From Duganella sp. SG902 (GTDB lineage: Bacteria > Pseudomonadota > Gammaproteobacteria > Burkholderiales > Burkholderiaceae_D), in contig NZ_JABMJK010000001.1 in assembly GCF_013376005.1 (NCBI RefSeq), forward strand, positions 248,001 to 312,000: a stretch of 64,000 bases of DNA, written 5' to 3'. The notes under the pieces are model-generated. The model ran no database searches. It was not told the DNA's origin and worked only from the letters and a program-made list of their open reading frames with translations. Below are positions 35,470 to 52,130 of the stretch, in pieces. The position numbers and the translations under genes were made by a program. The first letter of the stretch is position 1, and every line of letters starts with the position of its first letter.

Positions 35470-35519
35470 GCTCGCAAACGATTTGTTCGCACTGATCTGT
35501 GCGCAAAACGCACTTGTGG
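35470..35519 (-). promoter_or_regulatory. Probable LysR-regulator binding region of gcdH
   Basis: This 50-bp block matches the reverse complement of 52081-52130 in the lysR/etfB promoter at 41 of 50 positions by eye. The best-conserved parts are CAAACGATTTGTTCGCAC and the GTGCG(T/C)AAAACGCAC arm. It is 54-103 bp upstream of the gcdH start. The internal dyads (e.g. GTGCG-CAAAA-CGCAC) suit a LysR-type tetramer site. Confidence 0.7.
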
Positions 35520-35537
35520 AAACAGGCGGCCCAATAG

Positions 35538-35578
35538 CGATATTCCGCGCCGGGCCAGAGGCCGGGAGCGGAATATCG
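35538..35578 (-). terminator. Hairpin after the nitroreductase operon
   Basis: An 11-bp stem (CGATATTCCGC at 35538-35548 with its complement at 35568-35578) encloses a GC-rich loop that can itself pair. It lies 25 bp beyond the nitroreductase stop on the minus strand and before the gcdH promoter, so it probably separates the two transcription units. Confidence 0.6.
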
Positions 35579-35602
35579 AGGGTGGAAGAAGGGAAACGGC
35601 GC

Positions 35603-36196
35603 CTACAGCAGCGTGCAGGCGTCGTCGAAGGACAGTCTGGGGTGACGTGGGAACAGCGCGGCGGGATCGCCGTAGCCGAGGCCGCACAGGAAGTTCACTT
35701 TCAGCGTGGTGCCGGCAAAGAATTCCTGGTTGACCAGGTCGGCGTTGAAGCCGGACATGGGGCCGCAATCGAGGCCCAGCATGCGCGCGGCGATCATCAG
35801 GTAGGCGCCTTGCAGCGTGCCGTTGCGGAACGCCGTGCTTTCGCGCAGCGAGTCATCGCGCTCGAACATGGCGCCCGCCTCCGGCCGGTGCGGGAACAGC
35901 TTCGGCAGCTGCTGGTGGAAGGCGGTGTCGTAGGCGATCACCGCCACCACCGGCGCCCCGGTCACCTTGTCGACATTGGCCGGCGCCAGCGCCGGCACCA
36001 GCCGCCGCCTGGCCTCCGGGGTGCGCAGGAACAGCACCCGCAGCGGCGCGCAGTTCATGCTGGTCGGGCCCCAGCGCAGCAGGTCGTACAGCTCGGCCAG
36101 CAGCGTGTCCGGCACGCCGCGCGGCAGCCAGCGGTTCTGGCTGCGCGCGGCGCGGAACACCAACGTCTGCATGGCATCGTTGACGCTGACCGCCAT
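35603..36196 (-). CDS. Nitroreductase-family FMN oxidoreductase (RutE/HadB-like)
   Basis: 197-aa protein of the nitroreductase fold. FRAARSQNRWLP, LLRWGPTSMNCAPLRVLFL and GLDCGPMSGFNADLVNQEFF match the RutE/malonic-semialdehyde-reductase subgroup, which reduces small aldehydes or enones. It starts one base after the cupin stop. In a catabolic operon it could reduce an unsaturated or semialdehyde intermediate. The exact substrate is not predictable. Confidence 0.83.
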   Translation of the reverse strand: MAVSVNDAMQTLVFRAARSQNRWLPRGVPDTLLAELYDLLRWGPTSMNCAPLRVLFLRTPEARRRLVPALAPANVDKVTGAPVVAVIAYDTAFHQQLPKLFPHRPEAGAMFERDDSLRESTAFRNGTLQGAYLMIAARMLGLDCGPMSGFNADLVNQEFFAGTTLKVNFLCGLGYGDPAALFPRHPRLSFDDACTLL

Positions 36197-36197
36197 G

Positions 36198-36743
36198 TCA
36201 GCCGCCCCGGCGCGCCGCGCCCATCATCACGAACGCCACCCGTACCGGCTTGTCGGTCTTGTTGCGCCAGGCGTGGCGGGTGCCGTTCTGCACCACGATG
36301 TCGCCGGCCTTGAGCAGGCGCTGGGCACCGTTGTCCAGCTCCAGCCAGATCTCGCCGTCGAGCACGAAACCGTAGTCGATGGTGTCGGTGGTGTGCATGC
36401 CGGGGCTGTCCTGCTCGAACACGTCGATCAGGCCCGGCAGCATGGCCCCCATCTCGGCGCCGGCCGCCGCGAAGTCCATGTCCGGGCTGGCCATGACGGC
36501 GTCCGGCTGGAAGTCCACCACCAGCAGGCTGGAGGCGCCCGGCGCCGGCAGCAGCGAGCCGCGCGCGGCGGTCAGGTCGCCGCCGGCATGCGGCACGCCG
36601 GCGGCCGGCGCCGTCTGCCAGACCTGCGCGAACGCGTGGCCGGGTATGTGGGCGAAGCTGTGCGCACGCGGCGCGTCGCCATCGTCCACGAACACCGACC
36701 GGCCCTGCGCGTCGTGACCGGTTACCACCCGTCGTATCTTCAT
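36198..36743 (-). CDS. Cupin-domain protein
   Basis: 181-aa protein with a C-terminal cupin_2 barrel (about 105-175): MHTTDTIDYGFVLDGEIWLELD and LKAGDIVVQNGTRHAWRNKTDKP. The metal-binding pattern is reduced: the first motif gives H and E-like positions and the second keeps H in RHAW, so metal binding is uncertain. AAGGAG precedes the ATG. It lies between the Zn-ADH and nitroreductase genes with gaps of 11 and 1 bp. It may be a small-molecule-binding or isomerase-type cupin. Confidence 0.8.
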   Translation of the reverse strand: MKIRRVVTGHDAQGRSVFVDDGDAPRAHSFAHIPGHAFAQVWQTAPAAGVPHAGGDLTAARGSLLPAPGASSLLVVDFQPDAVMASPDMDFAAAGAEMGAMLPGLIDVFEQDSPGMHTTDTIDYGFVLDGEIWLELDNGAQRLLKAGDIVVQNGTRHAWRNKTDKPVRVAFVMMGAARRGG

Positions 36744-36754
36744 GGCCGCGCTCC

Positions 36755-37867
36755 TTATGGGCAGATGACGAAATTGCTGAAGCCGCCATTGCGGTTCTCG
36801 ATGCCGCCGATGGCTTCATTGATTTGCTCCAGCGGGAAGGTATGGTGCTGGAACACCGACAGGTCGACCACGCCGGCCTCCGCCAGGTCGGCCATCTCCT
36901 GCCCTTGCGCGGTGGTGAACCAGGCAGAGCCGACCAGGGTGATGTCGTTGTCCATCAGGTAGTGCAGGTTGACCGGCACGTCGCCCGCCACCGCGCCGAC
37001 GTTGACCAGCTTGCCGCCGCGGCGCAGCGTCCTGAGCGCGTCCAGCATCGGGCCGTGGCTGGCGCCGGGGCCGAGCGCGTCGATCACCACGTCCACGCCC
37101 TCGCCTTGCGTGACGTCCCCGGCCCATGGCTGCATCGAGCCGTCGTCCAGCGAGTGCACCGAGATGCGCTCCGGCGCCAGCGCCTTCACGCGCGCCAGCA
37201 GCTCGCGGTTGCGGCCGGTGCCGAGGATGCGGCGCGCGCCCAGCGCCAGCGCGAACAAGGCGCCGCCCAGGCCCAGCGTGCCGCTGATGCCGTTGATCAG
37301 CACGGTCGAGCCGGGGCCGACGTTGGCGGTGCGCAGCGCGCGGTAGCAGGTGCCCAGATAGCCCAGGCGCGCGGCCTGCTCGAACGGCATGCTGTCGGGG
37401 ATGCGCACCAGGCTGTACTGCGGCGCGCTCATGAATTCGCACAGGCCGCCGTACGGATACTGGTCGTAGATGCGCTGCGAGCGCTCGGAGAAGCCGAAAT
37501 AGCCGTTGAAGGTGTAGTGCGAGCAGGCGGTGGTCTCGCCGGCGCGGCAGTTGCGGCAGGCGCCGCAGTAGCGGGCCGGATTGACGTACACGCGGTCGCC
37601 CGGCTTGAAGCCGATCACCTGCGAGCCGACCGCCTCCACCACGCCGGCCGGGTCGAGGCCGAAGATGGCCGGCAGCTTGGGCAGCGGCAGATGGGGGAAC
37701 CAGTTGCCCCAGTTGCTCAGCACGTTGCCGAGGTTGGGCACGATGCCGCAGGCCTTGACCGCCACCAGCACGTCGGTGGGGCGCACTTCCGGCACCGGGA
37801 TCTGTTCAATCTTCATCGGCTCGCCAACGGCGTGCATGCGGGCCGCGCGCATCATTTTTGTCGTCAT
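36755..37867 (-). CDS. Medium-chain dehydrogenase (Zn-ADH family) lacking catalytic His
   Basis: 370-aa MDR-family dehydrogenase with a Rossmann domain (VLINGISGTLGLGGALFALALG). The structural-zinc cysteines C101, C104, C107 and C115 are present (CGACRNCRAGETTAC). C40 aligns with the first catalytic ligand. The usual GHE motif is FGLDPAG, so the catalytic histidine is Leu71 and the glutamate is Asp72. That argues against a normal catalytic zinc. AGGAG precedes the ATG. It heads or follows DUF1185 in a four-gene run. A reductase for a pathway ketone or aldehyde is plausible. Confidence 0.83.
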   Translation of the reverse strand: MTTKMMRAARMHAVGEPMKIEQIPVPEVRPTDVLVAVKACGIVPNLGNVLSNWGNWFPHLPLPKLPAIFGLDPAGVVEAVGSQVIGFKPGDRVYVNPARYCGACRNCRAGETTACSHYTFNGYFGFSERSQRIYDQYPYGGLCEFMSAPQYSLVRIPDSMPFEQAARLGYLGTCYRALRTANVGPGSTVLINGISGTLGLGGALFALALGARRILGTGRNRELLARVKALAPERISVHSLDDGSMQPWAGDVTQGEGVDVVIDALGPGASHGPMLDALRTLRRGGKLVNVGAVAGDVPVNLHYLMDNDITLVGSAWFTTAQGQEMADLAEAGVVDLSVFQHHTFPLEQINEAIGGIENRNGGFSNFVICP

Positions 37868-37903
37868 GATTGTCTCCTGATAGTTGATTTATTTTATCTA
37901 GAA

Positions 37904-38485
37904 TTAACGCAGACCATCTTCGCCGCGCACCTCGTCCGCCGCCAGGCCGCCGATGCGGGCGTGGATGCGGCCGCCGGTGGCCATCGCCAGGCCGAACACG
38001 ATCTCATCGCGGCGCGGGCCGTCCCACAAGGTCATCTCCGCCACGCCGAAGTGGCTGCGCACGTAGGCCGCCTGGATATGCCCGAGCGGCATCACCAGCC
38101 GGGTGCCGGCGCCGCCGATGGTCTTGGCGGCCGGCACGATGGCCTTCGGCCCGCCCAGCGCTTCACGCATGGCCCAGCCGCCGGCCTCGTGCCACACGGC
38201 GCCGTGCTCCAGCTCGCCATCCTCGCCGACCACGGCGCCCTTGCCGTAGGCCTGCACCGCTTGCGGGCCGCCGAGCGCCGCCAGCAGCCGCGCCGACAGT
38301 TCCGCGCCCAGTTGGCGCAGCTCCTGCATGAACGGCATGAGGTCGGGCTCATAGCGGCCGGCATAGGGGTTCTTCACCACCGCCATGGCCACCGCCACGC
38401 GCAGCGGCGTCGCCAGCCGCGGGCCGCCCTCGTGCCAGCACTCCTCGACATCCAGTTTGTACTTCCGAACATTCACCAGCGACAT
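37904..38485 (-). CDS. DUF1185 'amino acid synthesis' family protein
   Basis: 193-aa protein matching the family annotated as amino-acid-synthesis (DUF1185), whose activity is not established. Recognisable parts are LRVAVAMAVVKNPYAGRYEPDL, GKGAVVGEDGELEHGAVWHE and GGPKAIVPAAKTIGGAGT. GGAGG precedes the ATG. It is the first gene of the minus-strand operon and diverges from the ring-cleavage operon. Family members recur in aromatic-compound clusters, which suggests a lyase or decarboxylase role, but this is inference. Confidence 0.82.
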   Translation of the reverse strand: MSLVNVRKYKLDVEECWHEGGPRLATPLRVAVAMAVVKNPYAGRYEPDLMPFMQELRQLGAELSARLLAALGGPQAVQAYGKGAVVGEDGELEHGAVWHEAGGWAMREALGGPKAIVPAAKTIGGAGTRLVMPLGHIQAAYVRSHFGVAEMTLWDGPRRDEIVFGLAMATGGRIHARIGGLAADEVRGEDGLR

Positions 38486-38564
38486 CTACAACCTCCAGTC
38501 AACACCGTTATCCGGGCCGGGCGCCTATCGCCGTCCCCATGCGATAAATTATACACAGCGATCA

Positions 38565-38618
38565 TTTTTGTGCAAACTAAATATTTTTATGCACAAAATT
38601 AAGAATTGATCCTATAAT
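38565..38618. promoter_or_regulatory. Candidate GntR operators and promoter of the ring-cleavage operon
   Basis: TTTTATGCACAAAA (38585-38598) matches the core of the 28-bp palindrome in front of the GntR gene at 13 of 14 positions. An oppositely oriented copy, TTTTTGTGCAAAC, lies at about 38565-38576. A perfect TATAAT is at 38613-38618, and a 17-bp spacer places a -35 at 38590-38595, within the first site. Binding would therefore block this promoter and perhaps the divergent DUF1185 promoter. Confidence 0.65.
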
Positions 38619-38668
38619 CGGTCCGACCGCAGCAAAGTCTGGCCCCATTCCATACAGAGGAGAACCGC

Positions 38669-39520
38669 ATGAAACTGATATCGTACCGACGCGCGGGACG
38701 CGCCCACTACGGCGTCGTCATAGGCGACGGCGTCAATGAACTGACCGACCGCGTGGCCGGCGCCGCCGACCTGAGCGCCCTGCTGGCCAACCCGCATCTG
38801 CTGGCGCAGGCGCGCCAGATCGCCGCCGCCGGCAAGACCGACTACCCGCTGGCCAGCGTGACGCTGGAGCCGGTGATCCCCAAGCCGGGCAAGGTGGTGT
38901 GCGTGGGCATCAACTACGTCGAGCACGCCCACGAGGCGGGCCGCAAGATCGGCCAGTACCCGGTGATCTTCCAGCGCTACAGCGAAACCCTGATCGCCCA
39001 CGGCGCGCCGCTGCTGCGCCCCAAGGTGTCGACCAACTTCGACTTCGAGGCCGAGCTGGCGGTGGTGATCGGCAAGGGCGGCGCCCATATCGATCCGGCC
39101 AACGCCATGGAACACGTGGCCGGCTACACCTGCTTCAACGACGCCAGCGTGCGCGACTGGCAGTTCCACACCCACCAGTACGGCATGGGCAAGAACTTCG
39201 CCGGCACCGGCGCGCTCGGCCCGTGGCTGGTGACGGCCGACGACATCCCCGAGTACCGCGAGCTGACCGTCAGCGGCCGCCTGAACGGCGAGCAGCTGCA
39301 GTCGGGCAAGCTGTCCGAGCTGGCGTTCGACATCCCCGCGCTGATCGCCTACATCTCGCAGGCGCTGCCGTGGAACCCGGGCGACATCCTCGCCACCGGC
39401 ACCCCGAGCGGCATCGGCTTCAAGCGCAATCCGCCGATCTTCCTCGAGGCGGGCGGCGTTTTCGAGGTGACCATCCCCGGCATCGGCACCCTGTCCAACC
39501 CGGTCGTCGACGAAGCCTGA
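38669..39520 (+). CDS. Fumarylacetoacetate-hydrolase-family enzyme
   Basis: 283-aa FAH-fold enzyme. Metal ligands E127 and E129 (FDFEAELAVVIG) and D158 (CFNDASVRDWQ) are present, as are VCVGINYVEHAHE and LATGTPSGIGF. The fold covers acylpyruvate hydrolases, 2-oxo-diene hydratases/decarboxylases and isomerases of meta-cleavage pathways. GAGGAGA precedes the ATG. As first gene of the operon FAH-VOC-ALDH-FMO it most likely acts on the ring-fission product. Confidence 0.88.
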   Translation: MKLISYRRAGRAHYGVVIGDGVNELTDRVAGAADLSALLANPHLLAQARQIAAAGKTDYPLASVTLEPVIPKPGKVVCVGINYVEHAHEAGRKIGQYPVIFQRYSETLIAHGAPLLRPKVSTNFDFEAELAVVIGKGGAHIDPANAMEHVAGYTCFNDASVRDWQFHTHQYGMGKNFAGTGALGPWLVTADDIPEYRELTVSGRLNGEQLQSGKLSELAFDIPALIAYISQALPWNPGDILATGTPSGIGFKRNPPIFLEAGGVFEVTIPGIGTLSNPVVDEA

Positions 39521-39549
39521 TACGCTACCAACACAACAGGAGACCCAGC

Positions 39550-40101
39550 ATGTCCAAACTTCCGCGCATCCAATACACCCACACCGGGATTTTCTGCGTC
39601 GACCTCGAACGCATGGTCGAGTTCTACCGTTCCCGCATCGGCTTCATCGTCAGCGACCAGGGCGTGGCCTCCACCGGCCACCGCCTGTTCTTCATGACCC
39701 AGGACCCGGAAATCCACCACCAGCTGGTGCTGTTCGACGGCAAGCCGACCGGCCTGCCGTTCAACCCGATCAACCAGCTGTCGTTCCTGATGGATTCCAT
39801 CGACGACCTGTGCACCTACTACCGCCAGCTGCAGGAGTTCGGCATCACCGGCATCGAGCAGGTCGACCACGGCAACGCCTGGTCGCTGTATTTCAAGGAC
39901 CCGGAGGGCAACCCGATCGAGATGTACGTCGACAGCCCGTTCTACACCCACCAGCCCTGCCGCGAGCCGCTCGACCTGTCGCAAACGCCGGCGCAGATCG
40001 TGGCGCGGACCGAGGCCATGTGCCGCCGCCGTCCCGACTTCATGACGCGCGAGGCCTGGATCGCCGCCACCCGCGAAAAGATCCGCCTGCAGCGCGTATG
40101 A
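39550..40101 (+). CDS. VOC-superfamily extradiol dioxygenase-like protein
   Basis: 183-aa vicinal-oxygen-chelate protein. Candidate metal ligands are H11 (YTHTGIFCVDL), H56 or H57 (EIHHQLVLF) and E124 (GNPIEMYV), the spacing of ring-cleaving dioxygenases. The N-terminal MVEFYRSRIGFIVSD is typical of the fold. AGGAGA precedes the ATG. The stop overlaps the aldehyde dehydrogenase start (ATGA). It probably opens the ring of a dihydroxylated aromatic made by the monooxygenase; glyoxalase-type activity is the alternative. Confidence 0.85.
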   Translation: MSKLPRIQYTHTGIFCVDLERMVEFYRSRIGFIVSDQGVASTGHRLFFMTQDPEIHHQLVLFDGKPTGLPFNPINQLSFLMDSIDDLCTYYRQLQEFGITGIEQVDHGNAWSLYFKDPEGNPIEMYVDSPFYTHQPCREPLDLSQTPAQIVARTEAMCRRRPDFMTREAWIAATREKIRLQRV

Positions 40102-41528
40102 AGCCCAACTACATCGGCGGCGCGTGGCTGGACGGCGCCAGCGCGCGCGACAACCTGAACCCGTCCGACCTGTCCGACCACATCGGCCACTACGCCCACG
40201 CCGACGCCGCCCAGGCGCAACAGGCCATCCAGGCGGCGGCGCGGGCGCAGGCCGGGTGGGCGCACAGCGGCATCCAGCTGCGCGCCAGCGCGCTCGACTT
40301 CATCGGCGCCGAACTGCTGGCGCGGCAACAGGAGCTGGGCACGCTGCTGGCGCGCGAGGAAGGCAAGACGCTGGCGGAGGCGGCCGGCGAAGTGGCGCGC
40401 GCCGGCCACATCTTCAAGTTCTACGCCGGCGAGGCGCTGCGCCTGCGCGGCGACAAGCTGGCCTCGGTGCGGCCCGGCGTGGAGGTCGAGGTCACGCGAG
40501 AACCGGTGGGCGTGGTCGGTATCATCACGCCATGGAATTTCCCGATGGCGATACCGGCTTGGAAGATCGCCCCCGCCCTGTGCCACGGCAACGCGGTGGT
40601 GTTCAAGCCGGCCGACCTGGTGCCCGGCAGCGCCTGGGCGCTGGCCGAGATCATCAGCCGCGCCGGCCTGCCGCCGGGCGTGTTCAACCTGGTGATGGGG
40701 CGCGGCAGCGTGGTCGGCCAGGCCATCATCGAGGCGCCCGCGGTGCGCGCGGTCAGCTTCACCGGTTCGGTGGAGACCGGCCGCCAGTTGCTGCTGGCCA
40801 CCGCCCAACGCCAGGCCAAGGTGCAGCTGGAAATGGGCGGCAAGAATCCGCTGCTGATCCTCGACGACGCCGACCTCGACACCGCCGTGCATTGCGCCGT
40901 GCAGGGCGCCTACTATTCCACCGGCCAGCGTTGCACCGCCTCGTCGCGCTTCATCGTCGAGAAAGGCATTTACCCGGCCTTCGTGCGCCGCACCGCCGAG
41001 GCGCTGGCGGCGCTGCGCGTCGGCCACGCCCTGCATGCCGACACCCAGATCGGCCCGGTGGCCGACGCCGGCCAGCTGGCGCAGAACCTCGACTACGTGG
41101 CCATCGGCCGGGCCGAGGGCGCGCGCCTGGTCACGGGCGGCGAACGCCTGTCGCGCGAGACCGACGGCTACTTCATGCGCCCGGCCCTGTTCGCCGACGC
41201 CGAGCCGTCGATGCGCATCGCGCGCGAGGAAATCTTCGGCCCGGTGGCCTGCGCCATCCCGGCCGACAACTATGAACACGCGCTGGCGATCGCCAACGAC
41301 ACCCCGTTCGGGCTGTCGGCCGGCATCTGCACCGGCTCGCTCAAGCACGCGACCCACTTCAAGCGCCACATGCAAAGCGGCATGGTGATGGTCAACGTGC
41401 CGACCGCCGGCGTCGACTACCACGTGCCGTTCGGCGGCACCAAGGGTTCCAGCCACGGCGCGCGCGAGCAAGGCACGCACGCGGCGGAATTCTTCACCAG
41501 CGTCAAGACCGCGTACACCATGGCCTAG
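40098..41528 (+). CDS. NAD(P)-dependent aldehyde dehydrogenase
   Basis: 476-aa ALDH. The cofactor motif is IITPWNFPMAIPAWKIAPAL; catalytic E245 is in QLEMGGKN and nucleophile C279 in TGQRCTASSR. The C-terminal GVDYHVPFGGTKGSS resembles 2-oxoglutarate-semialdehyde dehydrogenases. The ATG overlaps the dioxygenase stop by four bases, so translation is coupled. In this operon it likely oxidises a semialdehyde from ring cleavage. Confidence 0.9.
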   Translation: MKPNYIGGAWLDGASARDNLNPSDLSDHIGHYAHADAAQAQQAIQAAARAQAGWAHSGIQLRASALDFIGAELLARQQELGTLLAREEGKTLAEAAGEVARAGHIFKFYAGEALRLRGDKLASVRPGVEVEVTREPVGVVGIITPWNFPMAIPAWKIAPALCHGNAVVFKPADLVPGSAWALAEIISRAGLPPGVFNLVMGRGSVVGQAIIEAPAVRAVSFTGSVETGRQLLLATAQRQAKVQLEMGGKNPLLILDDADLDTAVHCAVQGAYYSTGQRCTASSRFIVEKGIYPAFVRRTAEALAALRVGHALHADTQIGPVADAGQLAQNLDYVAIGRAEGARLVTGGERLSRETDGYFMRPALFADAEPSMRIAREEIFGPVACAIPADNYEHALAIANDTPFGLSAGICTGSLKHATHFKRHMQSGMVMVNVPTAGVDYHVPFGGTKGSSHGAREQGTHAAEFFTSVKTAYTMA

Positions 41529-41555
41529 GCGCCGCAAGCACAACTGGAGACAACA

Positions 41556-43160
41556 ATGAATATCGATGTGGATGTACTGATCGTCGGCATGGGACCGGTG
41601 GGCGCCGTCGCCGCCAACCTGGCCGGCAAATGGGGCCTGAAGACGCTGGCGGTCGACAAGATGCTGGAAATCTACGACAAGCCGCGCGCCTTCGGCCTGG
41701 ACCAGGAGGTGATGCGGGTCTTCGACAACATCGGCATCGGCGAGCGGATCGCCGCGCACGTGATGCCTTACCGCACCTCGGAATACCAGACCACCGGCGG
41801 CGCCGTGCTCAAGCGCATCGCGCCGGCCGGCACGCCCTACCCGCTGGGCTGGGCGCCCAACTACGTGTTCTCGCAGCCGGCGGTGGAGGGCGCGCTGCGC
41901 GCCAACCTCGCCAGCTTCCCGGAGGTGAGCGTGGAGCTGGGCACCGAGGTGCTGTCGGTCGAGCAGAACGGCGACGTCGCCAGCGTGCTGCTGCGCGACC
42001 GCGACGGCCGCGAGCGCCGCGTGGGCGCGCGCCATGTGCTGGCCTGCGACGGCGGCACCAGTCCGCTGCGCACCAGCCTGGGCTTGCAGATGGAGGATCT
42101 GGAGTTCGACGAGCCGTGGATGGTGGTCGACGTGATGGTGACGCCGGAGGTGGCGGCGCGCCTGCCGGCCGTCAACATCCAGTTCTGCGAGACCGCGCGC
42201 CCCTGCACCTACATCGTCGGCCCCGGCCTGCACCGGCGCTGGGAATTCATGATCAACGACGATGAAACGCCGGGCGCCATCCAGCAGCCGGAGGCGATCC
42301 GCCAGCTGCTGTCGCGCTGGATGGCGCCCGGCGAATACGAGCTGTGGCGCGCCTCGGCCTACCGCTTCCACGCGCTGATCCTGAAGAAGTGGCGCGAGGA
42401 CAATCTGTTCTTCCTCGGCGACGCCGCCCACATGACGCCGCCCTTCATGGCGCAAGGCATGTGCCAGGGCATCCGCGACGCCGCCAACCTGGTGTGGAAG
42501 CTGGCCATGGTGCGGCAGGGACTGGCCGCGCCGGCCCTGCTCGACACCTACCAGCAGGAACGCCTGCCGCACGTGCGCCAGACCACGCTGGTGACGCGCG
42601 AGCTGGGCCGCGTGATCTGCGAGCGCGATCCGGCCAGGGCCGCCGAGCGCGACGCCCGCATGCTGGCCGAGATGGCGGCCGCCAGCGGCCCCACCGTGCG
42701 TCAGTCGCTGATCCCCGGCCTGGGCGCGGGCCTGCTGGCCGCGCAGGACGCCACCGGCGCGCGCGGCCTGCTGTTCCCGCAACCACGGGTGGACGACAGC
42801 GAGGGCCGCAGCGGCCTGCTCGACCGGTTCACCGGCGCCCGCTTCGTGCTGGTGGCGGCGGCCGGCGCCAGCGTCACGCCGCTGCTGGAGGAAATCCGCA
42901 GCTGGGACAGCCTGGACGCGCTGCCGCTGGCCGTGGTCACCTTGTCCGACAGCGGCCAGCCGCCGCTGCCGCCGTACGGCGTGCGCGAGCATGACGGCGT
43001 GCTGCGCCAGTGGATGACGGCGCATGGCTGCCAGTACGCGCTGGTGCGCCCGGACCACTACGTGTACGGCGGCGCGGCCGGCCTGCGCGAAGGGCTGGAC
43101 CTGCTCAAGTCGCTGCGGCTGGCCCTGGGTGGCAACCTGATCGCCGCCCTGACGTTCTAG
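41556..43160 (+). CDS. FAD-dependent aromatic monooxygenase, MhpA-like
   Basis: 534-aa flavoprotein hydroxylase. The N-terminal FAD motif is VLIVGMGPVGAVAANLAG (about 7-24); a DG motif occurs at LACDGGTSPLRT, and the second FAD motif FFLGDAAHMTPPFMAQGM is near residue 286. A thioredoxin-like C-terminal region completes the MhpA/PheA layout. GGAGA precedes the ATG. Enzymes of this group hydroxylate phenolic rings with NAD(P)H, here presumably preparing the substrate of the adjacent extradiol dioxygenase. Confidence 0.9.
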   Translation: MNIDVDVLIVGMGPVGAVAANLAGKWGLKTLAVDKMLEIYDKPRAFGLDQEVMRVFDNIGIGERIAAHVMPYRTSEYQTTGGAVLKRIAPAGTPYPLGWAPNYVFSQPAVEGALRANLASFPEVSVELGTEVLSVEQNGDVASVLLRDRDGRERRVGARHVLACDGGTSPLRTSLGLQMEDLEFDEPWMVVDVMVTPEVAARLPAVNIQFCETARPCTYIVGPGLHRRWEFMINDDETPGAIQQPEAIRQLLSRWMAPGEYELWRASAYRFHALILKKWREDNLFFLGDAAHMTPPFMAQGMCQGIRDAANLVWKLAMVRQGLAAPALLDTYQQERLPHVRQTTLVTRELGRVICERDPARAAERDARMLAEMAAASGPTVRQSLIPGLGAGLLAAQDATGARGLLFPQPRVDDSEGRSGLLDRFTGARFVLVAAAGASVTPLLEEIRSWDSLDALPLAVVTLSDSGQPPLPPYGVREHDGVLRQWMTAHGCQYALVRPDHYVYGGAAGLREGLDLLKSLRLALGGNLIAALTF

Positions 43161-43221
43161 GCGCCGCCAGCCGCGGTACCGGCGCCGGATGCGTCCCGCA
43201 TCCGGCGCTTTTATTTGCATT

Positions 43222-43249
43222 ATCCGTATTTTATGCATAAAATACGGAT
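43222..43249. promoter_or_regulatory. 28-bp perfect palindrome, probable GntR autoregulatory operator
   Basis: Positions 43222-43249 read the same on both strands, with core TTTTATGCATAAAA. It ends 23 bp before the GntR ATG, where a repressor would overlap the start of transcription. Related sequences occur at 38565-38598 and 51039-51110. Confidence 0.75.
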
Positions 43250-43975: not shown

Positions 43976-44419
43976 TCAGTTGTACACGCCGGTCAGCACG
44001 ATGACGTCGCCAACGCGTTCAAAGTAGGACGAGCGCGACGCCATCGATTTGGTCACCGGATTGAGCCAGGTGAAATCCACCCAGCCGCTGCCCTTCTTTT
44101 TGGCCAGCTCGATTTCCTCGCGCACGAAGGCCTTGCCGTTGACGTCCTTCAGTTCCAGCAAGGCCTTGCCGACCAGTTTGGGATTGCCGCCATCGGCCAG
44201 CAGCACGCCGTTCATGTCCAGCACCACCACGTACAGCTCGCCGTTGACGAACTGGCCCTGCGGCTTGTTGAACTCGGCCAGCGCCGCCTCCCTGCCCTGC
44301 TGCTTGAGGTAGGCCACCGCCTTCTGGACGAAGCCCACCGCCTCGTCCTTGCTGGCCGCCATGGCCGGCGCCTGGCACAGCGCCGCCAGCAGCAACAATG
44401 GGATATAACGCGCTTTCAT
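43976..44419 (-). CDS. Small periplasmic Cache-domain protein (second copy)
   Basis: 147-aa secreted protein (signal peptide about 1-21, QAPAMAASKD), paralogue of the protein at 10210-10659. Both share AYLK-x2-G-x-EA, PKLVGKA, EEIELAKKKGSGWVDFTW and a GDVI...GVY ending. ATG 44419 has AAGGAGG upstream and overlaps the RND transporter stop (ATGA), so it is the last gene of the DUF1302 cassette. The role may be to sense or bind the transported compound; no signalling domain is attached. Confidence 0.82.
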   Translation of the reverse strand: MKARYIPLLLLAALCQAPAMAASKDEAVGFVQKAVAYLKQQGREAALAEFNKPQGQFVNGELYVVVLDMNGVLLADGGNPKLVGKALLELKDVNGKAFVREEIELAKKKGSGWVDFTWLNPVTKSMASRSSYFERVGDVIVLTGVYN

Positions 44420-46845
44420 ACCGCCTCCTTGAGTAATTGGCCGTTGCTTGCAGTGGCCGCCGCGCCGGCGCGGCGCGCCGGACGCAACAGGAAGTGGGCC
44501 AGCGCCGGCAACAGGATCAGCGCGCCCAGCATGTTCCAGATGAACATGAAGCCCAGCAGGATGCCCATGTCGGCCTGGAATTTGATCGGGGAGAAGCCCC
44601 AGGTCGCCACCGCGATGCCCAGCGTGACGCCGGTCAGCACCACCACCTTGCCGGTGAACAGCAGCGCGCGGTAGTAGGCCGCCGACAGGCTGGCGCCGCG
44701 CCGCAGCTCGACCAGCATCACCGACACCACGTACAGCGCGTAATCGACGCCGATGCCCACGCCCAGCGCGATCACCGGCAGGGTGGCGACCTTGACGCCG
44801 ATGCCGAGGCCGACCATCAGGGCCTCGCACAGCACCGAGGTCAGCATCAAGGGCAGCACCGCGCAGACCACCGCGCGCCAGGAGCGGAAGGTGACGAAGG
44901 CCAGCACGATCACCGCCGCATACACCCACAGCAGCATCTCGGTATTGGCCTTCTTCACCACGATGTTGGTGGCCGCCTCGATGCCGGCGTTGCCAGCCGC
45001 CGACAGGAACTGGATGTCCTTGCTGTTGTTGGCCGCCGCGAAGGCCTCCACCTCGCGCACCACCGAGTCCAGCGTGTCGGCCTTGTGGTCCTTGAGGTAG
45101 ATGTAGACCGTCAGCAGGTCGCAGTTCTGGTTGAGCAGTTCACGCGGGGCGCGGGTGGTGATGGCGTTCAGCATGTCCTGCGAGCGCGGCAGGTCGAACC
45201 ACTTGAGGCTGCCCTCGTTCATGCCGGCCGAGGCGCGCTTGCTGAGCGTGGCGTAGGAGTTGGTCGACTCCACCCCGGCCAGCTGCTGCAGGCGCCACTC
45301 CAGCGCCTCCACCTGCGCCAGCGTGCCGTAGTTGGCGCACATGTACTGCGGCGTGCGCACCATGACCACGTAGTTGTCGCTGCTGGCGGCGTAGTGCGCG
45401 GCCATGAAGGCGCTGTCGCGGTTGTAGCGCGAGTTGGCGCGCAGCTCCGGCGCGCCGGGATCGAGGTCGCCGATTTTCAGGTGCATGCTGACCGCGCCGC
45501 CGGCCGTGGCCAGCACCAGCGCCACGCCGATGGCGATGGTGGCCCAGCGGCGGCCGGTGAAGCGGTCGAGGAAGGCCCACAGGCGATGCTTGCGCGGCGC
45601 GCCGGCGGCGTCCTGCCCGCCCTCGTCCTGCAGGCTGCGGCGCGCGGCCGTGGCGCTGACGCCGGTGTAGGACAGCAGCACCGGCAGCAGGATCAGGTTG
45701 GTGAAGATCAGCATGGCCACGCCCACGCTGGCCGAGATGGCCAGGTCGTGGATGACCGGTATGTCGATCACCATCAGCACCGCGAAGCCGACCGCGTCGG
45801 CCAGCAGCGCGGTCAGGCCGGCCAGGAACAGGCGGCGGAAGGTGTAGCGCGCCGCCACCAGCCGGTGCGCGCCGCGGCCGATGTCCTGCATGATGCCGTT
45901 CATCTTCTGCGCGCCGTGGCTCATGCCGATGGCGAACACCAGGAACGGCAGCAGCACCGAATACGGGTCGAGGTCGAAGCCCAGCAGCGGCAAGGCGCCC
46001 AGCAGCCACAGCGCCGCCACCAGCGAGCACGACACCACCAGCAGGGTGCTGCGCACGCAGCGCGTGTACCACAGCAGCACGGCGGTGCAGATCGCCAGCG
46101 CCACGCCAAAGAACAGCAGCACCTGGCGCATGCCCTCGATCAGGTCGGCCACCACCTTGGCGAAGCCGGTGATGTGGATGCGCACGCCCTGCGCCTCGTA
46201 CTTGGCGCGCAGTTGCTCCAGGCGGGTGCCGAGGTCGGCGTAGTCGATGCGCTGGGTGCCGCTGGTTTCCAGCAGCGGCACCACGATCACGCTGGACTTG
46301 AAGTCCGGCGCCACCAGCGAGCCGATCTCGCCGGAGCGCTCGATGTTGGCGCGCAGCTCGTCCAGCCTGGGCGGCGAGCCGTCAAAGCCGTCCGGGATCA
46401 CCGGACCGCCGTCCAGGCCCTCCTCGGTCACGCCGATCCAGCGCACCGACGGCATCCAGATCGATTTCATGAACGAGCGGTCGACGCCGGGCAGCAGGAA
46501 CAGTTCGTCGCTGAGCTGGCGCAGCGTTTCCATGTAGCGTGCGTCGTAGATGGTGCCGTGCCCGCTTTCAACGGCGATGCGCAGCGTGTTGCCCAGGCCG
46601 GCAAGGTCGGCCTTGTGTTGCTGGTAGTTTTGCACGTAGGGATGACGTGCCGGGATCATGCGTTCGAAGCTGGGGTTGAGGCGCACGCCGAGCGCTTGCC
46701 AGCCCAGCACGGCGGTGGCCAGCACGAACAGGATCAGCACCACGACGCGGTGGTTGAACAGCAGGCGTTCAACCGCCGAGCCCGAGCGCGGATCGAATTG
46801 ATCGAGATTGGCGATCACCGGGTGATCGGGAGCGGAGGTATGCAT
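44416..46845 (-). CDS. RND/MMPL-family inner-membrane transporter
   Basis: 809-aa transporter with two repeats of one plus five transmembrane helices and two large periplasmic loops. Helix 10 carries the proton-relay motif GVGIGVDYALYV. The matching place in helix 4 reads FAIGMSHGAQ, without the Asp. No membrane-fusion partner of the AcrA type is present, as in MmpL/HpnN-like lipid transporters. The start ATG 46845 overlaps the preceding stop (TGATG); a GTG one codon upstream is possible. It is fourth in the DUF1302 cassette. A hydrophobic substrate or signal is likely moved between membranes. Confidence 0.87.
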   Translation of the reverse strand: MHTSAPDHPVIANLDQFDPRSGSAVERLLFNHRVVVLILFVLATAVLGWQALGVRLNPSFERMIPARHPYVQNYQQHKADLAGLGNTLRIAVESGHGTIYDARYMETLRQLSDELFLLPGVDRSFMKSIWMPSVRWIGVTEEGLDGGPVIPDGFDGSPPRLDELRANIERSGEIGSLVAPDFKSSVIVVPLLETSGTQRIDYADLGTRLEQLRAKYEAQGVRIHITGFAKVVADLIEGMRQVLLFFGVALAICTAVLLWYTRCVRSTLLVVSCSLVAALWLLGALPLLGFDLDPYSVLLPFLVFAIGMSHGAQKMNGIMQDIGRGAHRLVAARYTFRRLFLAGLTALLADAVGFAVLMVIDIPVIHDLAISASVGVAMLIFTNLILLPVLLSYTGVSATAARRSLQDEGGQDAAGAPRKHRLWAFLDRFTGRRWATIAIGVALVLATAGGAVSMHLKIGDLDPGAPELRANSRYNRDSAFMAAHYAASSDNYVVMVRTPQYMCANYGTLAQVEALEWRLQQLAGVESTNSYATLSKRASAGMNEGSLKWFDLPRSQDMLNAITTRAPRELLNQNCDLLTVYIYLKDHKADTLDSVVREVEAFAAANNSKDIQFLSAAGNAGIEAATNIVVKKANTEMLLWVYAAVIVLAFVTFRSWRAVVCAVLPLMLTSVLCEALMVGLGIGVKVATLPVIALGVGIGVDYALYVVSVMLVELRRGASLSAAYYRALLFTGKVVVLTGVTLGIAVATWGFSPIKFQADMGILLGFMFIWNMLGALILLPALAHFLLRPARRAGAAATASNGQLLKEAV

Positions 46846-47933
46846 CACTGGCCTTGTGGAGATGGAAGGGCGATCTTGGTGACGCCGCGCACGCCGGAGA
46901 CGAACAGCGTGCCGTCGGCGCTTTGCACGGCGCCGGTGAGCGGCGCGCCGGTGGCGCCGGCCTGCGGCTGGAAGCTGCGGCCGCCGTCGGTGCTGCGGAA
47001 CAGGCGGCCCGTTTCATCGGTCAGCAGCAGGCTGCCGTCCTGGAGGCGCAGGCCGGCGGTCAGCGACTGGGTGGTGGCGATGTCGCTTTTGCGCCAGGCG
47101 CCGCCGGGCGTTTCCGACCAGTAGACATTGCCGCGCATGCCGAACACCACGGTGCGCGGGCCGGCCGCGATGGCGCCGAAGTAGGTGCCCTCGTACGGCG
47201 TGGCCAGCGCGCGGAAACTGCGGCCGCGGTCGGACGAGTAGAACACCGCGCCCTGTTCGCCGGCGATCACGCAGGCGTCGCCATCGGCGGCGATGGCGTA
47301 CAGGTGCTTGGCTTTCGGATTGTCGAAGCGCTCCAGCGCGGCGCGCCAGGTGGCGCCGCCGTCGCTGGTGGCCAGCGCCAGCCCGAAGGCGCCGATCAGC
47401 AAGCCGTTCCTGTCATCGAAAAAATGAATGTCGAAGAACGGCTTGCTGGGGCCTTCGGCCACCAGCCGTTCGGCGTCGGCCTGCGCGCGCGCCGGGTCGG
47501 CGCCAGGGGGCAGCCGGCCCTCGCTGACCGCCGTCACCACCAGGCGGGCGGCGGCGGTGCCGTCGAGGTGTTTGGTCCAGCTCTTGCCGCCGTCGCCGGT
47601 CCGCAGCAGCACGCCGCTGTGGCCGACGGCCCAGCCGTCCTTCTGGTTGAGGAAACGGGCGCCGACCAGCGACACGCTGACCGGCACCGCCGCCTGCCGC
47701 CAGTGGGCGCCGGCGTCGTCCGAATACAGCACGATGCCGCGCTCGCCCACCGCGACCAGGCGCGCGCCGGCCTGCGTGATGCCAAGCATGACCGCGCCGG
47801 CCGCCTTGGCGCTTGGCGCCGACGGCCGTTCCAGCACATCGGGCACCGCCCATGCCGGCATGGCGCCGATCACCAGCAGCGCCGCCGTCACCCTGGCGGC
47901 GGCCACGCGGCCCACATGAGAAATCAGTTTCAT
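46845..47933 (-). CDS. YCF48/BNR-repeat periplasmic propeller protein
   Basis: 362-aa exported protein (signal peptide about 1-29, GAMPAWAVPD). It has repeated blades with Asp-box-like motifs such as YSDDAGAHWRQA, TGDGGKSWTKH, TSDGGATWRAA, SSDRGRSFRAL and STDGGRSFQP, giving a predicted beta-propeller like the photosystem II assembly factor Ycf48. Here it is a scaffold or chaperone candidate for the RND system. GGAGGAG precedes the ATG at 47933. Its stop overlaps the transporter start. Confidence 0.85.
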   Translation of the reverse strand: MKLISHVGRVAAARVTAALLVIGAMPAWAVPDVLERPSAPSAKAAGAVMLGITQAGARLVAVGERGIVLYSDDAGAHWRQAAVPVSVSLVGARFLNQKDGWAVGHSGVLLRTGDGGKSWTKHLDGTAAARLVVTAVSEGRLPPGADPARAQADAERLVAEGPSKPFFDIHFFDDRNGLLIGAFGLALATSDGGATWRAALERFDNPKAKHLYAIAADGDACVIAGEQGAVFYSSDRGRSFRALATPYEGTYFGAIAAGPRTVVFGMRGNVYWSETPGGAWRKSDIATTQSLTAGLRLQDGSLLLTDETGRLFRSTDGGRSFQPQAGATGAPLTGAVQSADGTLFVSGVRGVTKIALPSPQGQ

Positions 47934-47952
47934 GACCACTCCTCCGGCGCGC

Positions 47953-49320
47953 CTAGCGGCTGCCCTTGGCCGCCAGGTTCTCCGGCGTGAAGTAGCTGTC
48001 GTTCCAGCGCGGCACCTGCTTGTACTGGTAAGCCTTTTCGACCGGCAGGTTGCCCAGCACATAGGTGTTGGCCAGCAGGTTGTACAGGCCGAAGGTCTGC
48101 GACACCGAGCCCGGCACGTCCGGCATCGCCATCGGCAGCGTGTAGCCGACGCGCCACAACTGGCCCTGGGCGTCCCACATATCGGCCAGCACGGCGGTGT
48201 AGGTGTCCTCGTCCAGATAGAAGCGGCGCTTCGGCACCGCGTGGCGCTTGCCCGCCGCGACGGTGGCCTCCACCTCCCACACGCGGTGCAGCTCCCAGCG
48301 CAGATGGTCGGGGTTCAGGTGCTGCGGCCCGAGCAGGTCGGCGGCCTTGACCTGCCAGGTGCGGTTGGTGTTGTAGGGAATGTAGATTTCCTTCTTGCCG
48401 ATGATTTTCCAGTCATAGCGATCCAGCCCGCCCGAGAACACAAAGGCCTCGTCGAAGTAGAACGCGCCCGAGGCCACGCTGTCCGGCGTGTCGTAGCCGA
48501 GGGTGGGCGCCTTGCGCGTGCGGCGCTGGCCGACCAGGTATTGCCAGGCCTGGCGGCCCTTGTCGGCGTCCACCGTGTCGCGCAGCAGGATCGACTCGCC
48601 GGCCTTGAACGGCGGCCCGTAGGTGACCAGCATCAGGTTGTTGTAGTCGCCCTTGAAGGTCTCCAGCGAACCATCCTTGAACCAGTACGGCGACTGCACT
48701 TCGCTCAGGCCGTCCGAGGCCATGGTCGATTTGCCGTCCGAGGTGGTGACGAACAGGCGGAACAGCATCGAGCTGGCCTGGCCCTTCCACGACAGCATGT
48801 GATTCCACATCAGCTCGTTGCCGGTCTTGGGGATGGGGAAAGGAATGCCGCCGTAGCAGCCCTCCAGCGACTGGCCGTTGTCCCTGGTTTTGCAGCGGGT
48901 GGCGTTCTTCAGCGTGTTGTCGTAGGCCCACTGCGGCATGGCGGCGGTGCGGTGGGTCGGGTAGACGTCGATGCGGTAGCTCGGATACTTCCTCATCAGC
49001 GCCTTGACGCCGTCGGTCAGCTTGTCCGCGTACTGGTCCATGTTCCTGGCGCTGATCGAGACCACCAGCTTGTCGCCGGCGTAGGGATCGGGACGCTGGT
49101 CGCCATCCTTGTAGCCGGCCGGCACCTTGGTGTAGCCGCCGTCCCAGGGCGGAATGGTGCCGGCCTTGTTGCCGGCCTTCTCCGCGCCCACCGGCGTCAG
49201 TTCGCCTTTGAGCTTGCTGGCTTCCTCGGCGCCGACCGCCGCCATGGCGCCGCCCTGCGCCACGGCCAGGCCCAGCAAGATGGAAGTCAGCGCGCCGCGC
49301 TTGATGGTGTGGTGATTCAT
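47953..49320 (-). CDS. DUF1329 periplasmic/outer-membrane protein
   Basis: 455-aa protein of the DUF1329 family, with signal peptide about 1-28 (GGAMAAVGAEE). The conserved TPVGAEKAGNKAGTIPPWDGG and NYGGIPFPIP-type stretch (GCYGGIPFPIPKTGNE) are family marks. DUF1329 proteins are predicted to have a LolA-like lipid-binding fold. GGAG precedes the ATG, 18 bp after the DUF1302 stop. With DUF1302 and the RND pump it forms a conserved but functionally undefined cassette. Confidence 0.87.
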   Translation of the reverse strand: MNHHTIKRGALTSILLGLAVAQGGAMAAVGAEEASKLKGELTPVGAEKAGNKAGTIPPWDGGYTKVPAGYKDGDQRPDPYAGDKLVVSISARNMDQYADKLTDGVKALMRKYPSYRIDVYPTHRTAAMPQWAYDNTLKNATRCKTRDNGQSLEGCYGGIPFPIPKTGNELMWNHMLSWKGQASSMLFRLFVTTSDGKSTMASDGLSEVQSPYWFKDGSLETFKGDYNNLMLVTYGPPFKAGESILLRDTVDADKGRQAWQYLVGQRRTRKAPTLGYDTPDSVASGAFYFDEAFVFSGGLDRYDWKIIGKKEIYIPYNTNRTWQVKAADLLGPQHLNPDHLRWELHRVWEVEATVAAGKRHAVPKRRFYLDEDTYTAVLADMWDAQGQLWRVGYTLPMAMPDVPGSVSQTFGLYNLLANTYVLGNLPVEKAYQYKQVPRWNDSYFTPENLAAKGSR

Positions 49321-49338
49321 ATGTGTCTCCTGCTGAAA

Positions 49339-50994
49339 TTAGAATGTGCTTTGCAACGAGAACGAGATGAAATCCCGGTCCTTGCTGGTTTGCTGGTACT
49401 GCAGCACGGTCTGCTGCGGCGGCACGTTGGGCGTGATGAACGTGCCCTGCGCGCCCATGAAGTGCACCAGGTTGACGGCGAACTTGAACTGCTTGCGGTA
49501 GTCAAAGGTCGCGCCGATGCTGAAGTCGCCGCCATGCTCGGCGCCGCCGGCGAAGCGCAGGCCGGTCGAGGAGCGGCCGCTGAGGGCGTAGCCAAGGCCG
49601 ATCGGCACGCTCAGGTCCACGCCGGGCGCCACCTGGTAGTACTCGGGCGTGAACAGCAGGCGCACGCCGGAAGCGTCGCGCGTGCTGCGCGGATCGAGCG
49701 CGCCCGGATTGGCGGTGGTGCTGAGGCGGCGGTTCCAGGCCAGCTCGCCCAGGATGGAGCCGCCCTGCCACAGGCCGCCGCCGTTGAGGACGTAGATGGC
49801 CGACAGGTTGGCGTGGGCGGTATTGCCGACCGCGTAGGCGGCCGTGCCGGGCGTGTTGCCGGCGCCGAAGGCGACCACCGGATCGCTGACCAGCGGCGCG
49901 TCGCGGCGGGTGGAAATTTCCGCCGCCACGTTGGCGCCGGCCAGCGTGGTGCTGGCGCTGACGCCGAAGGCCTTGATGTCCTGGCCGTACACCTGGCGGT
50001 AGGTGCCGACCGATGGCAGCGCCGGCACGGCGGCCGGCGTCAGGTACAGGTTGAAATCCTTGTCGTGGTAGCGGGTCAGGTAGACGCCGAACTCGGCGAT
50101 CTCGCTGTCCGGACGGAAGCGCAGCTGCACGCCGCCCTGCCCGCTGTTCTTGGGCTTGATGTCGTCGACGCGGTCGAAATACACATGGGCGAACGAGCCC
50201 GGCGCGAAGAAGCGCTCGGCGCCGGCGCCGACGTAATCGGCAAACGAGAAATAGCTGCCCGAACCGGGAATGCGGTTGGCGCGCCATTCGAACTGGTAGT
50301 AGCCGCCCACGGTGACGTTGGGCGACAGCTGCAACTGGCCGGACAGCTGGTTCACCGGCATCAGCAATTCCTTGAACTGGGTGCCGGGCACTGACAGCAG
50401 CTTGATCACGTCCACCGGCGCCTGGCCGGCCGAGATGCCGTTATCGCCAAAAAACAACGTTTCGCCGTACAGCACCGTGTGACGGCCGAGGCGCACGCTG
50501 GCGGCGGCGCTGCCGACGTCGAAGCGGCTGTAGACGAAGGCGTCGAGCAATTCCGCCTTCTTGCCGTGCAGCTTGCGGGTGCTATCGGTGAACTCGTTGC
50601 TGCCCACGCTGAGCTGGCTGGCGGTGCCGGCCGAGTTGTTGTCGTTGCGGCGGTTGTAGACGCTGTCGTACCAGGCGGCGCCGGAGATCCGCAGGCCGGA
50701 ATCCTTGTAGCCGAGGTCCAGCTCCGACAGCAGGTCCACCCGGTTCGAGATCAGGCCGGTGCTGAAGTTGCGGTCGCCATCGTCGGTGTTGGCGTCGACG
50801 ATCAGGCCGGGCGCCGCGCTTTTCAGGCGGAAGGCGTTGCTGTATTTGACGGTGTTGTCCCAACGGACCTTCACATCCGGGTTGCCGGATTCGATCTCCA
50901 CCGCCCAGCCGCTGGCGGCGGCGGTTTGCAGCGCCGCCGCCACGGCGGCGGCGGCCAGGCCGCGTCGCGGCCGGTATGGTGCCCTGGTTGTCAT
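49339..50994 (-). CDS. DUF1302 outer-membrane barrel protein
   Basis: 551-aa exported beta-barrel protein. The signal sequence is at about 1-31 (AAASGWAVEI). Alternating strands run to a terminal phenylalanine (SLQSTF), the usual outer-membrane signature. FGDNGISAGQAPVDVIK and GYYQFEWRANRIPGSG are typical of DUF1302. AAAGGAG precedes ATG 50994; the open frame continues upstream only as shadow of the lysR gene. It leads the cassette and could admit or release a hydrophobic catabolic substrate. Confidence 0.88.
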   Translation of the reverse strand: MTTRAPYRPRRGLAAAAVAAALQTAAASGWAVEIESGNPDVKVRWDNTVKYSNAFRLKSAAPGLIVDANTDDGDRNFSTGLISNRVDLLSELDLGYKDSGLRISGAAWYDSVYNRRNDNNSAGTASQLSVGSNEFTDSTRKLHGKKAELLDAFVYSRFDVGSAAASVRLGRHTVLYGETLFFGDNGISAGQAPVDVIKLLSVPGTQFKELLMPVNQLSGQLQLSPNVTVGGYYQFEWRANRIPGSGSYFSFADYVGAGAERFFAPGSFAHVYFDRVDDIKPKNSGQGGVQLRFRPDSEIAEFGVYLTRYHDKDFNLYLTPAAVPALPSVGTYRQVYGQDIKAFGVSASTTLAGANVAAEISTRRDAPLVSDPVVAFGAGNTPGTAAYAVGNTAHANLSAIYVLNGGGLWQGGSILGELAWNRRLSTTANPGALDPRSTRDASGVRLLFTPEYYQVAPGVDLSVPIGLGYALSGRSSTGLRFAGGAEHGGDFSIGATFDYRKQFKFAVNLVHFMGAQGTFITPNVPPQQTVLQYQQTSKDRDFISFSLQSTF

Positions 50995-51038
50995 GCTTGT
51001 CTCCTTTATAGCGGCTCGGACCGCGGTTGTTGTGGTGA

Positions 51039-51110
51039 TTTTTTGTGCACGCGAGCTTATTATGCATGAATATATTTTTTGTGCATAGTTTATTATTTTG
51101 AGCACGAATA
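51039..51110. promoter_or_regulatory. Cluster of GntR-like operator sites upstream of DUF1302
   Basis: Four related elements lie 45-116 bp before the DUF1302 ATG: TTTTTTGTGCAC (51039-51050), TTATTATGCATGAA (51057-51070), TTTTTTGTGCATAG (51075-51088) and ATTTTGAGCACGAATA (51095-51110). They resemble TTTTATGCATAAAA of the GntR palindrome. This supports joint control of the cassette and the ring-cleavage operon. Confidence 0.6.
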
Positions 51111-51173
51111 AAAAAAGGCAGCCATCTGGCTGCCCTTTGCATTTCGATACTCTTGCGCGTTGCGTGCGCCGGT

Positions 51174-52064
51174 CTAATCCAGCCCCATGGCCGCGCTGTA
51201 TTCGCGCGCCTGCCGCTCCAGCCAGGTGCGGAACACGGCCAGCGCCGGGTTGCCGGCCTTGTTCTCCGGGTAGATCAGGTAGTAGGAGCGCTCGTTCAGG
51301 TACTGGTGGCTGACCGCCTGCACCAGCACGCCGCGCCGCAACTCGTCCTCCACCAGGAAGCGCGGGATCAGCGCCACGCCCATGCCATGGATGGCCGCCT
51401 CGGCCAGCATGGAGAACAGCTCGAAGCGCGGCCCGGACATGTCGTTGTCCACCTCCATGTGGCGCGAGGCGAACCAGTCGCGCCAGGCATACGGCCGGGT
51501 GCTCTGCTGCAGGAGCGTGTGGCGCCGCCAGTCCACCCTTCCCAGCGCCGGGCTGCACACGGCGATCAGGTTCTCGCGCATCAGGAACAGGCTGTCGCTG
51601 CCGGGCCAGCTGGACTGGCCGGCGTAGATGGCCGCGTCGAACGGCGTGTCGTCGAACATGAAGGGCTGGGTGCGCGCGCTGAGGTTGATGGTGATTTCCG
51701 GATGCTCGGCGGCGAAGTGCGGCATGCGCGGCAGCAGCCACTTGGTGGCGAAGGTCGGCACCACGCCCAGCTCCAGCGTGCCGCCCTGCCCGCCCTTGGC
51801 CATCAGGGCCAGCGTGTCGCGCTCCACCTCGTCCAGCCGGGCGCTGATCTGGCGGCTGTAAATCAGGCCGGCCTCGGTCAGCGCCACGCCGCGCCGGCCG
51901 CGCCGGAACAGCTTCAGATCAAGGAACTCCTCCAGCGCGCCGATCTGGCGGCAGATGGCGCTTTGCGTCACGGCCAGTTCATCGGCGGCCTTGGTGAAAC
52001 TCTGGTGACGCGCGGCGGCTTCAAATGCCGACAGGGCGGCGGTGGACGGTATCTTGCGGCGCAT
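51174..52064 (-). CDS. LysR-family regulator (GcvA/GcdR-like) of gcdH and etf
   Basis: 296-aa LysR regulator. The start is ATG 52064 because AAAGGAGG lies eight bases upstream; the frame extends to 52103 but would run into the operator. The helix-turn-helix is at about 5-65 (FTKAADELAVTQSAICRQIGALEE), followed by a two-lobed effector domain. It diverges from etfB. The shared DNA element at gcdH suggests it controls glutaryl-CoA oxidation, like GcdR of other proteobacteria; the effector is probably glutarate or a related acid. Confidence 0.88.
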   Translation of the reverse strand: MRRKIPSTAALSAFEAAARHQSFTKAADELAVTQSAICRQIGALEEFLDLKLFRRGRRGVALTEAGLIYSRQISARLDEVERDTLALMAKGGQGGTLELGVVPTFATKWLLPRMPHFAAEHPEITINLSARTQPFMFDDTPFDAAIYAGQSSWPGSDSLFLMRENLIAVCSPALGRVDWRRHTLLQQSTRPYAWRDWFASRHMEVDNDMSGPRFELFSMLAEAAIHGMGVALIPRFLVEDELRRGVLVQAVSHQYLNERSYYLIYPENKAGNPALAVFRTWLERQAREYSAAMGLD

Positions 52065-52080
52065 GCCTGCGGCCTCCTTT

Positions 52081-52130
52081 TTAGAAGTGCGTTTTACGCA
52101 CAATTTGGTGCGAACAAATCGTTTGTGAGC
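52081..52130. promoter_or_regulatory. LysR-type operator in the lysR/etfB divergent promoter
   Basis: This block is the partner of 35470-35519 (41 of 50 matches in reverse orientation). It holds GTGCGTTTTACGCAC as an inverted repeat and ACAAA-TCG-TTTGT as a second dyad. It lies 17-66 bp upstream of the lysR start and 66-115 bp upstream of etfB, suitable for autorepression plus activation of etfBA. Confidence 0.7.

Follow-up and report, generated by a model that had tools for sequence, protein, structure and literature searches.

Two promoters in the genome of Duganella sp. SG902, one upstream of the glutaryl-CoA dehydrogenase gene gcdH and the other between a divergent lysR gene and etfB, carry nearly the same 50-bp element, and the question raised by this locus is why two such distant promoters should share it. 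A sequence-only reading of the window, the whole stretch of 64,000 nucleotides analysed here, had proposed that one LysR regulator controls both the dehydrogenase and its electron acceptor. Comparison with other genomes lends this proposal strong support, through the orthology of the regulator, its adjacency to gcdH in relatives and the presence of a T-N11-A box. We further suggest an origin that the sequence-only reading had not seen, namely that the two promoters have the same element because both would descend from the glutarate switch of the regulator GcdR, the intergenic region between gcdR and gcdH, after the splitting of an ancestral module.

Two copies of one element in the genome

Positions 35470-35519 and the reverse complement of 52081-52130 are identical at 41 of 50 bases without a gap. 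Both copies are intergenic and 16.6 kb apart, and each contains two dyads in the same order, as the sequence-only reading had stated; the spacing of the dyads is identical as well. They are oriented alike relative to the downstream gene (minus strand for gcdH, plus strand for etfB), and their likeness extends over the inferred -10 box and ends just upstream of the dyads, where 16 of 47 bases match. The features of the two sites are as follows.

35470-35519, minus strand: shared element, gcdH copy; putative GcdR operator and upstream part of the promoter (41/50 match; conserved in gcdR-gcdH intergenic regions of relatives)
35499-35513, minus strand: predicted primary GcdR box GTGCGTTTTGCGCAC, of T-N11-A form (centre near -64 by arithmetic; the P. 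putida footprint box has the same form)
35473-35492, minus strand: predicted second, activation half-site GTGCGAACAAATCGTTTGCG (matrix; the CGTTTG columns are among the most conserved)
35449-35477, minus strand: inferred gcdH promoter (-35 TTGCGA, 17 bp, -10 TAAATT; layout of the P. putida gcdH promoter)
52081-52130, plus strand: shared element, etfB/gcdR copy (41/50 match; alignment with relatives)
52087-52101, plus strand: predicted primary GcdR box GTGCGTTTTACGCAC, of T-N11-A form (dyad scan, matrix)
52108-52127, plus strand: predicted second, activation half-site GTGCGAACAAATCGTTTGTG (matrix, spacing)
52123-52151, plus strand: inferred etfB promoter, presumably a former gcdH promoter (-35 TTGTGA, 17 bp, -10 TACATT)

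Within the window, 41/50 is the top inverted 50-mer match (runner-up 38/50), yet the best direct match reaches 40/50, so that the count by itself is only mildly unusual. This narrow lead over other 50-mer pairs is what could be said for a dispersed repeat or a chance likeness devoid of any regulatory role. Against a dispersed repeat, which the sequence-only reading had named as the finding that would count against it, a 111-base query matched the genome (6.8 Mb) at two places only, with 82% identity at the second of them (E 3.8e-10). The genome-wide motif scan that had been suggested as a check gave the same answer; the dyad GTGCGTTTTRCGCAC occurred without mismatch at these two places only, and no one-mismatch site for this 15-base dyad was found in the genome. 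At two mismatches, 25 further genome sites appeared versus 18 in total with a reversed control, and these are therefore apparently background. A dispersed repeat is thus rejected on copy number, and chance likeness is rejected by the conservation of the element in relatives, where many species have it in the gcdR-gcdH interval; taken together, we leave next to no room for this explanation.

The element is built of the box GTGCG-N5-CGCAC, followed after 6 bases by GTGCGAACAAATCGTTTGY, with the spacing fixed. The T-N11-A box with GTG...CAC arms is present upstream of gcdH and again before etfB, and at both window sites the second part reaches into the inferred -35 box. With an assumed start of transcription 7 bases past the inferred -10 box, the box centre falls by arithmetic at about -64. 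Promoters of LysR-type activators have a recognition site near -65 and an activation site touching the -35 box, and the window positions agree with this only under the assumed start. A scan with a strict sigma-70 consensus listed a promoter at neither window site; poor -35 boxes are frequent in activated promoters.

The neighbouring genes are the following.

34229-35416, minus strand: gcdH, glutaryl-CoA dehydrogenase (start ATG at 35416, aligning with the start in relatives)
32985-34229, minus strand: gcdG, succinate/glutarate CoA-transferase-like (best family 561.7 bits, below the curated cut-off of 750)
52196-52945, plus strand: etfB (alternative start possible at the in-frame ATG 52181)
52976-53908, plus strand: etfA (family models, loci of relatives)

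In most of the fetched loci where gcdR faces gcdH, gcdG lies downstream of gcdH. The genome holds a second gcdH (85% identical, G000:C9) and a second etfB (73%). Upstream of the second gcdH the element was not found, and a pattern search of the genome placed it at neither second copy; the pair in the window therefore looks like a dedicated set.

Between the two sites lies a catabolic cluster (35603-51036) comprising an MhpA-like monooxygenase, a glyoxalase-fold protein, an FAH-like hydrolase, an aldehyde dehydrogenase, an MMPL transporter and YCF48-like, DUF1329 and DUF1302 proteins, parts of which recur, rearranged, in the related loci L064, L067 and L068. As a guess, this cluster may feed glutarate to gcdHG. 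The genes flanking it (26735-32975 and 53947-57827) we take to be glycoside hydrolases from their appearance, and two of these flank genes share a 40/50-base match, at 31086 and 55667.

The regulator gene and its site in relatives

51174-52064, minus strand: gcdR, LysR-family, GcvA-like regulator (family models, loci of relatives, orthology)

We take the product of this gene to be an orthologue of GcdR, the regulator of glutarate catabolism. It is identical at 181 of 296 residues (61%) to the protein beside gcdH in P. putida W15Oct28, which stands in for the KT2440 GcdR; within the DNA-binding part the count is 52 of 66. With the GcvA subfamily model NF008352 it scored 270.2 bits, below the curated cut-off of 288. 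Among solved chains its best match was GcvA, the glycine cleavage activator (PDB 8y6u, E 3.7e-49), which differs in its target, as glycine cleavage is another pathway. The sequence-only reading had expected a function for the lysR gene to follow from the shared element, and orthology together with gcdH adjacency in relatives now allows the gene to be named as GcdR.

In P. putida KT2440, GcdR activates gcdH in response to glutarate (PMC6667623); site binding and activation by glutarate are known for P. putida only. There, the T-N11-A box GTGACAAAATATCAC sits in one of two GcdR-protected regions, and the gcdH promoter has a -35 TTGTCG with 17 bp to the -10 box (PMC6667623). The KT2440 gcdR-gcdH-gcoT system resembles the one described here in its regulator, which is of the same orthologous group and has gcdH beside it as in the relatives of the window, and in its GTG-N9-CAC form of the T-N11-A box, its -35 position and its 17-bp spacing, whereas the box core reads GTGAC...ATCAC instead of GTGCG...CGCAC (PMC6667623). 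Unlike KT2440, the window has gcdHG and gcdR 16.6 kb apart, two putative operators and etfBA as a second candidate target.

At a cut-off of E<=1e-60, a lysR match was found in 23 of 148 related genomes, Duganella sp. SG902 included. Long loci were taken for 20 of the 24 matches outside Duganella sp. SG902 (19 of 20 kb and one of 19 kb), leaving out G103, G114 and the second matches of G085 and G147. In 17 of these 20 loci gcdR is adjacent and divergent to gcdH with the element between them, and all 3 loci with a 90%-identical gcdR are among these 17; the remaining three (L075, L082 and L083), which are weaker matches at 43-54% identity, lack gcdH beside lysR. The order gcdR, then divergently gcdH, gcdG, etfB and etfA, is found in 3 of the 17 (L064, L065 and L067, of which L064 and L065 are near-identical). 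The arrangement in L064, L065 and L067 (G043) comprises the same genes, regulator and element as the window, but there one element serves the row of genes, and in the window it is divided between two promoters. In the window itself gcdR does not adjoin gcdH, which is 16.6 kb off, and has etfB as its neighbour, a departure explained by the two junctions described below. Alignment of the promoters in relatives, also suggested beforehand as a check, showed the element conserved in the gcdR-gcdH intergenic regions. Moreover, a pattern tuned to the window matched in 8 of the 148 genomes; seven have one match each, always beside the lysR match, and only Duganella sp. SG902 has two.

A wider set of named loci came from a regulator profile search, of which the best 80 of 578 were taken. 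In 44 of these 80, including Pseudomonas putida W15Oct28, P. juntendi and Duganella radicis, gcdH is adjacent and divergent to gcdR, and 26 of the 44 intergenic regions passed the motif cut. The other 18 failed, and the site is therefore not universal within the best 80 of 578 loci; nine of the failures, alphaproteobacteria by title, have no CG[TC]TTG at all, and the other nine have the motif in part only, some as a looser ATG...CAT form. P. juntendi (L123) has a box identical in every letter to the published one of P. putida, and there too 6 bases separate it from the second part.

A matrix was built from 25 gcdR-gcdH intergenic sites outside Duganella, drawn from the best 80 of 578 loci, leaving out L117, which belongs to the same genome as G043. 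In a scan of the window it ranked the two copies of the element first, at 47.3 and 42.1 bits, and the next separate site scored 17.2; a 16-site matrix from genus and family relatives gave the two copies 60.0 and 59.2, with the next at 20.2. These scores call for some caution, as the motif was already known when the register of the matrix was fixed. Being near-identical to L064, L065 did not enter the motif matrix. A relaxed pattern search of the genome recovered both copies free of mismatches and, at 3 mismatches, three other sites, against 1 with the reversed control, and offered no further convincing GcdR site.

One weaker candidate, at 38575-38615, reached 14-20 bits with the different matrices and was rejected as a GcdR site, being part of a different conserved dyad. 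This dyad, TTTTTGTGCAAAC...TATGCACAAAA, lies at 38486-38668 between divergent AA_synth and FAH-like genes and is almost unchanged in G022 and G043. It is possibly the operator for the GntR-type regulator of the cluster (43189-43974) and not for GcdR.

Similar two-part sites ending in CGTTTGC were observed in Burkholderia-group loci (L163 at about 2666, L167 at about 1938 and about 8597), at distances of 1.4 to 8 kb from a LysR gene with 45% identity. The second half-site may be common to a wider GcvA-like clade, and related GcvA-like proteins might bind it too. Could another GcvA-like LysR protein of the genome, and not the product of 51174-52064, then bind both window sites? Besides these Burkholderia-group sites, it could be argued that 16 or 32 of the 102 first-look candidates in the genome were scored, and weaker relatives are therefore not listed. 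Yet the element adjoins the gcdR gene itself in relatives, and the Duganella sp. SG902 genome has a single lysR match at E<=1e-60; we hold another protein of this kind to be very unlikely and retain GcdR as the candidate for both sites.

Junctions and origin of the split

The sequence similarity to relatives breaks at two places.

35518-35599, no strand: left junction, the gcdR position in G022 (blastn blocks stop at 35517 and restart at 35600)
52154-52194, plus strand: right junction, gcdHG absent (the blastn block with L064 stops at 52153 and restarts at 52195)

On the gcdH side the window is collinear with G022 (L068), where gcdG and gcdH face gcdR, followed by reductase, cupin and ADH genes; the similarity is broken between 35517 and 35600, hence gcdR is missing there. 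On the other side, similarity to G051 (L064) spans gcdR and the operator up to 52153 and restarts at 52195, at etfB, hence gcdHG is missing there. Both breakpoints coincide with the positions of gcdR and gcdHG in relatives. By eye, no gcdR remnant was seen in the 82 bases of the left junction. At the right junction, ACGAAATGAG at 52176-52185 matches the gcdH start-codon region of G051 in the alignment, which is what a fusion of the gcdH promoter and start to etfB would look like.

The interval from the reductase stop (35603) to the gcdH operator holds a hairpin with arms of 19 nt (35538-35578). This hairpin has only two weak matches elsewhere in the genome (E 0.99). Perhaps it is a terminator; the terminator scan did not list it.

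In quick protein trees, gcdH groups with G022 (support 98) and gcdR with G051, G004 and G052 (support 97), while in both rpoB trees alike Duganella sp. SG902 groups with G043 (support 100 in the second). These placements fit a mosaic of two modules. The gcdG tree gave no resolved place for the window gene. All of these are quick trees with one support value each, and the rows of G019, G060 and G005 in the first rpoB tree and of G034 in the second were evidently read on the wrong strand and are meaningless. Over the 66 bases from the box to the -10, the two window copies agree at 48 and the etfB copy agrees with G051 at 57. A recent duplication of the operator within the genome is not favoured, because the etfB copy is closer to G051 than to the gcdH copy. 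The gcdH copy agrees at 49 bases with both G022 and G051, hardly above 48, and so this short stretch is indecisive on its origin. We give roughly an even chance to a history in which two gcdR-gcdH modules underwent reciprocal loss, a G022-like one keeping gcdHG and a G051-like one keeping gcdR and etfBA, and in which the surviving regulator took over the other piece because its operator was still compatible. A rearrangement of one module is a possible alternative to this mosaic.

If gcdHG had moved or lost gcdR, the gcdH copy could be a relic whose promoter is otherwise driven, with GcdR acting only at the etfB/gcdR site. Likeness at this copy could last by descent alone, and the second gcdH lives without the element. 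Nonetheless, both T-N11-A arms, the second GTG, the CGTTTG, the spacings and the -35 and -10 boxes were kept, in contrast to the 17-bp spacer and the flank upstream, which diverged. A relic is accordingly regarded as improbable, though less so than binding by another LysR protein.

Proposed control by GcdR

We consider it very probable, from sequence comparison, that both sites originate from the GcdR operator and that GcdR controls gcdHG and etfBA. The 50-bp block would form the conserved core of the operator-promoter for GcdR. This regulator, which is tetrameric in P. putida, would bind the T-N11-A box GTGCG-N5-CGCAC, centred near -64, and also a second site, GTGCGAAC-AAAT-CGTTTGY, overlapping the -35 box, and glutarate as effector would enable the bound regulator to activate transcription. 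We infer that the ancestor had one site between divergent gcdR and gcdH-gcdG, followed in some relatives by etfB-etfA. Here the module would have been split into gcdHG without gcdR and gcdR-etfBA without gcdHG, with a copy of the site on either piece, and the intergenic copy on the gcdR side would now precede etfBA because gcdHG is missing there. Since each piece of the split module has its own site, GcdR would control the distant gcdHG as well as etfBA, the latter through the site next to its own gene, from which it perhaps also regulates itself. Such joint control would supply glutaryl-CoA dehydrogenase and its electron acceptor together.

The regulator and the type of site are already known, and the split layout is a new arrangement of a known regulatory system. 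In the open literature we found no description of this layout with etfBA as a separate target, and nothing on GcdR together with electron transfer flavoprotein or on glutaryl-CoA dehydrogenase together with etfBA and a LysR regulator. The 2019 P. putida paper leaves further GcdR targets possible (PMC6667623), for which etfBA would be a concrete candidate. An otherwise generic LysR gene thereby receives a named function and a testable regulon, and an electron-transfer flavoprotein would be tied to glutarate breakdown. Moreover, the locus suggests that a divergent module of regulator and operon can come apart and yet retain its regulatory link, since both pieces still carry a copy of the operator.
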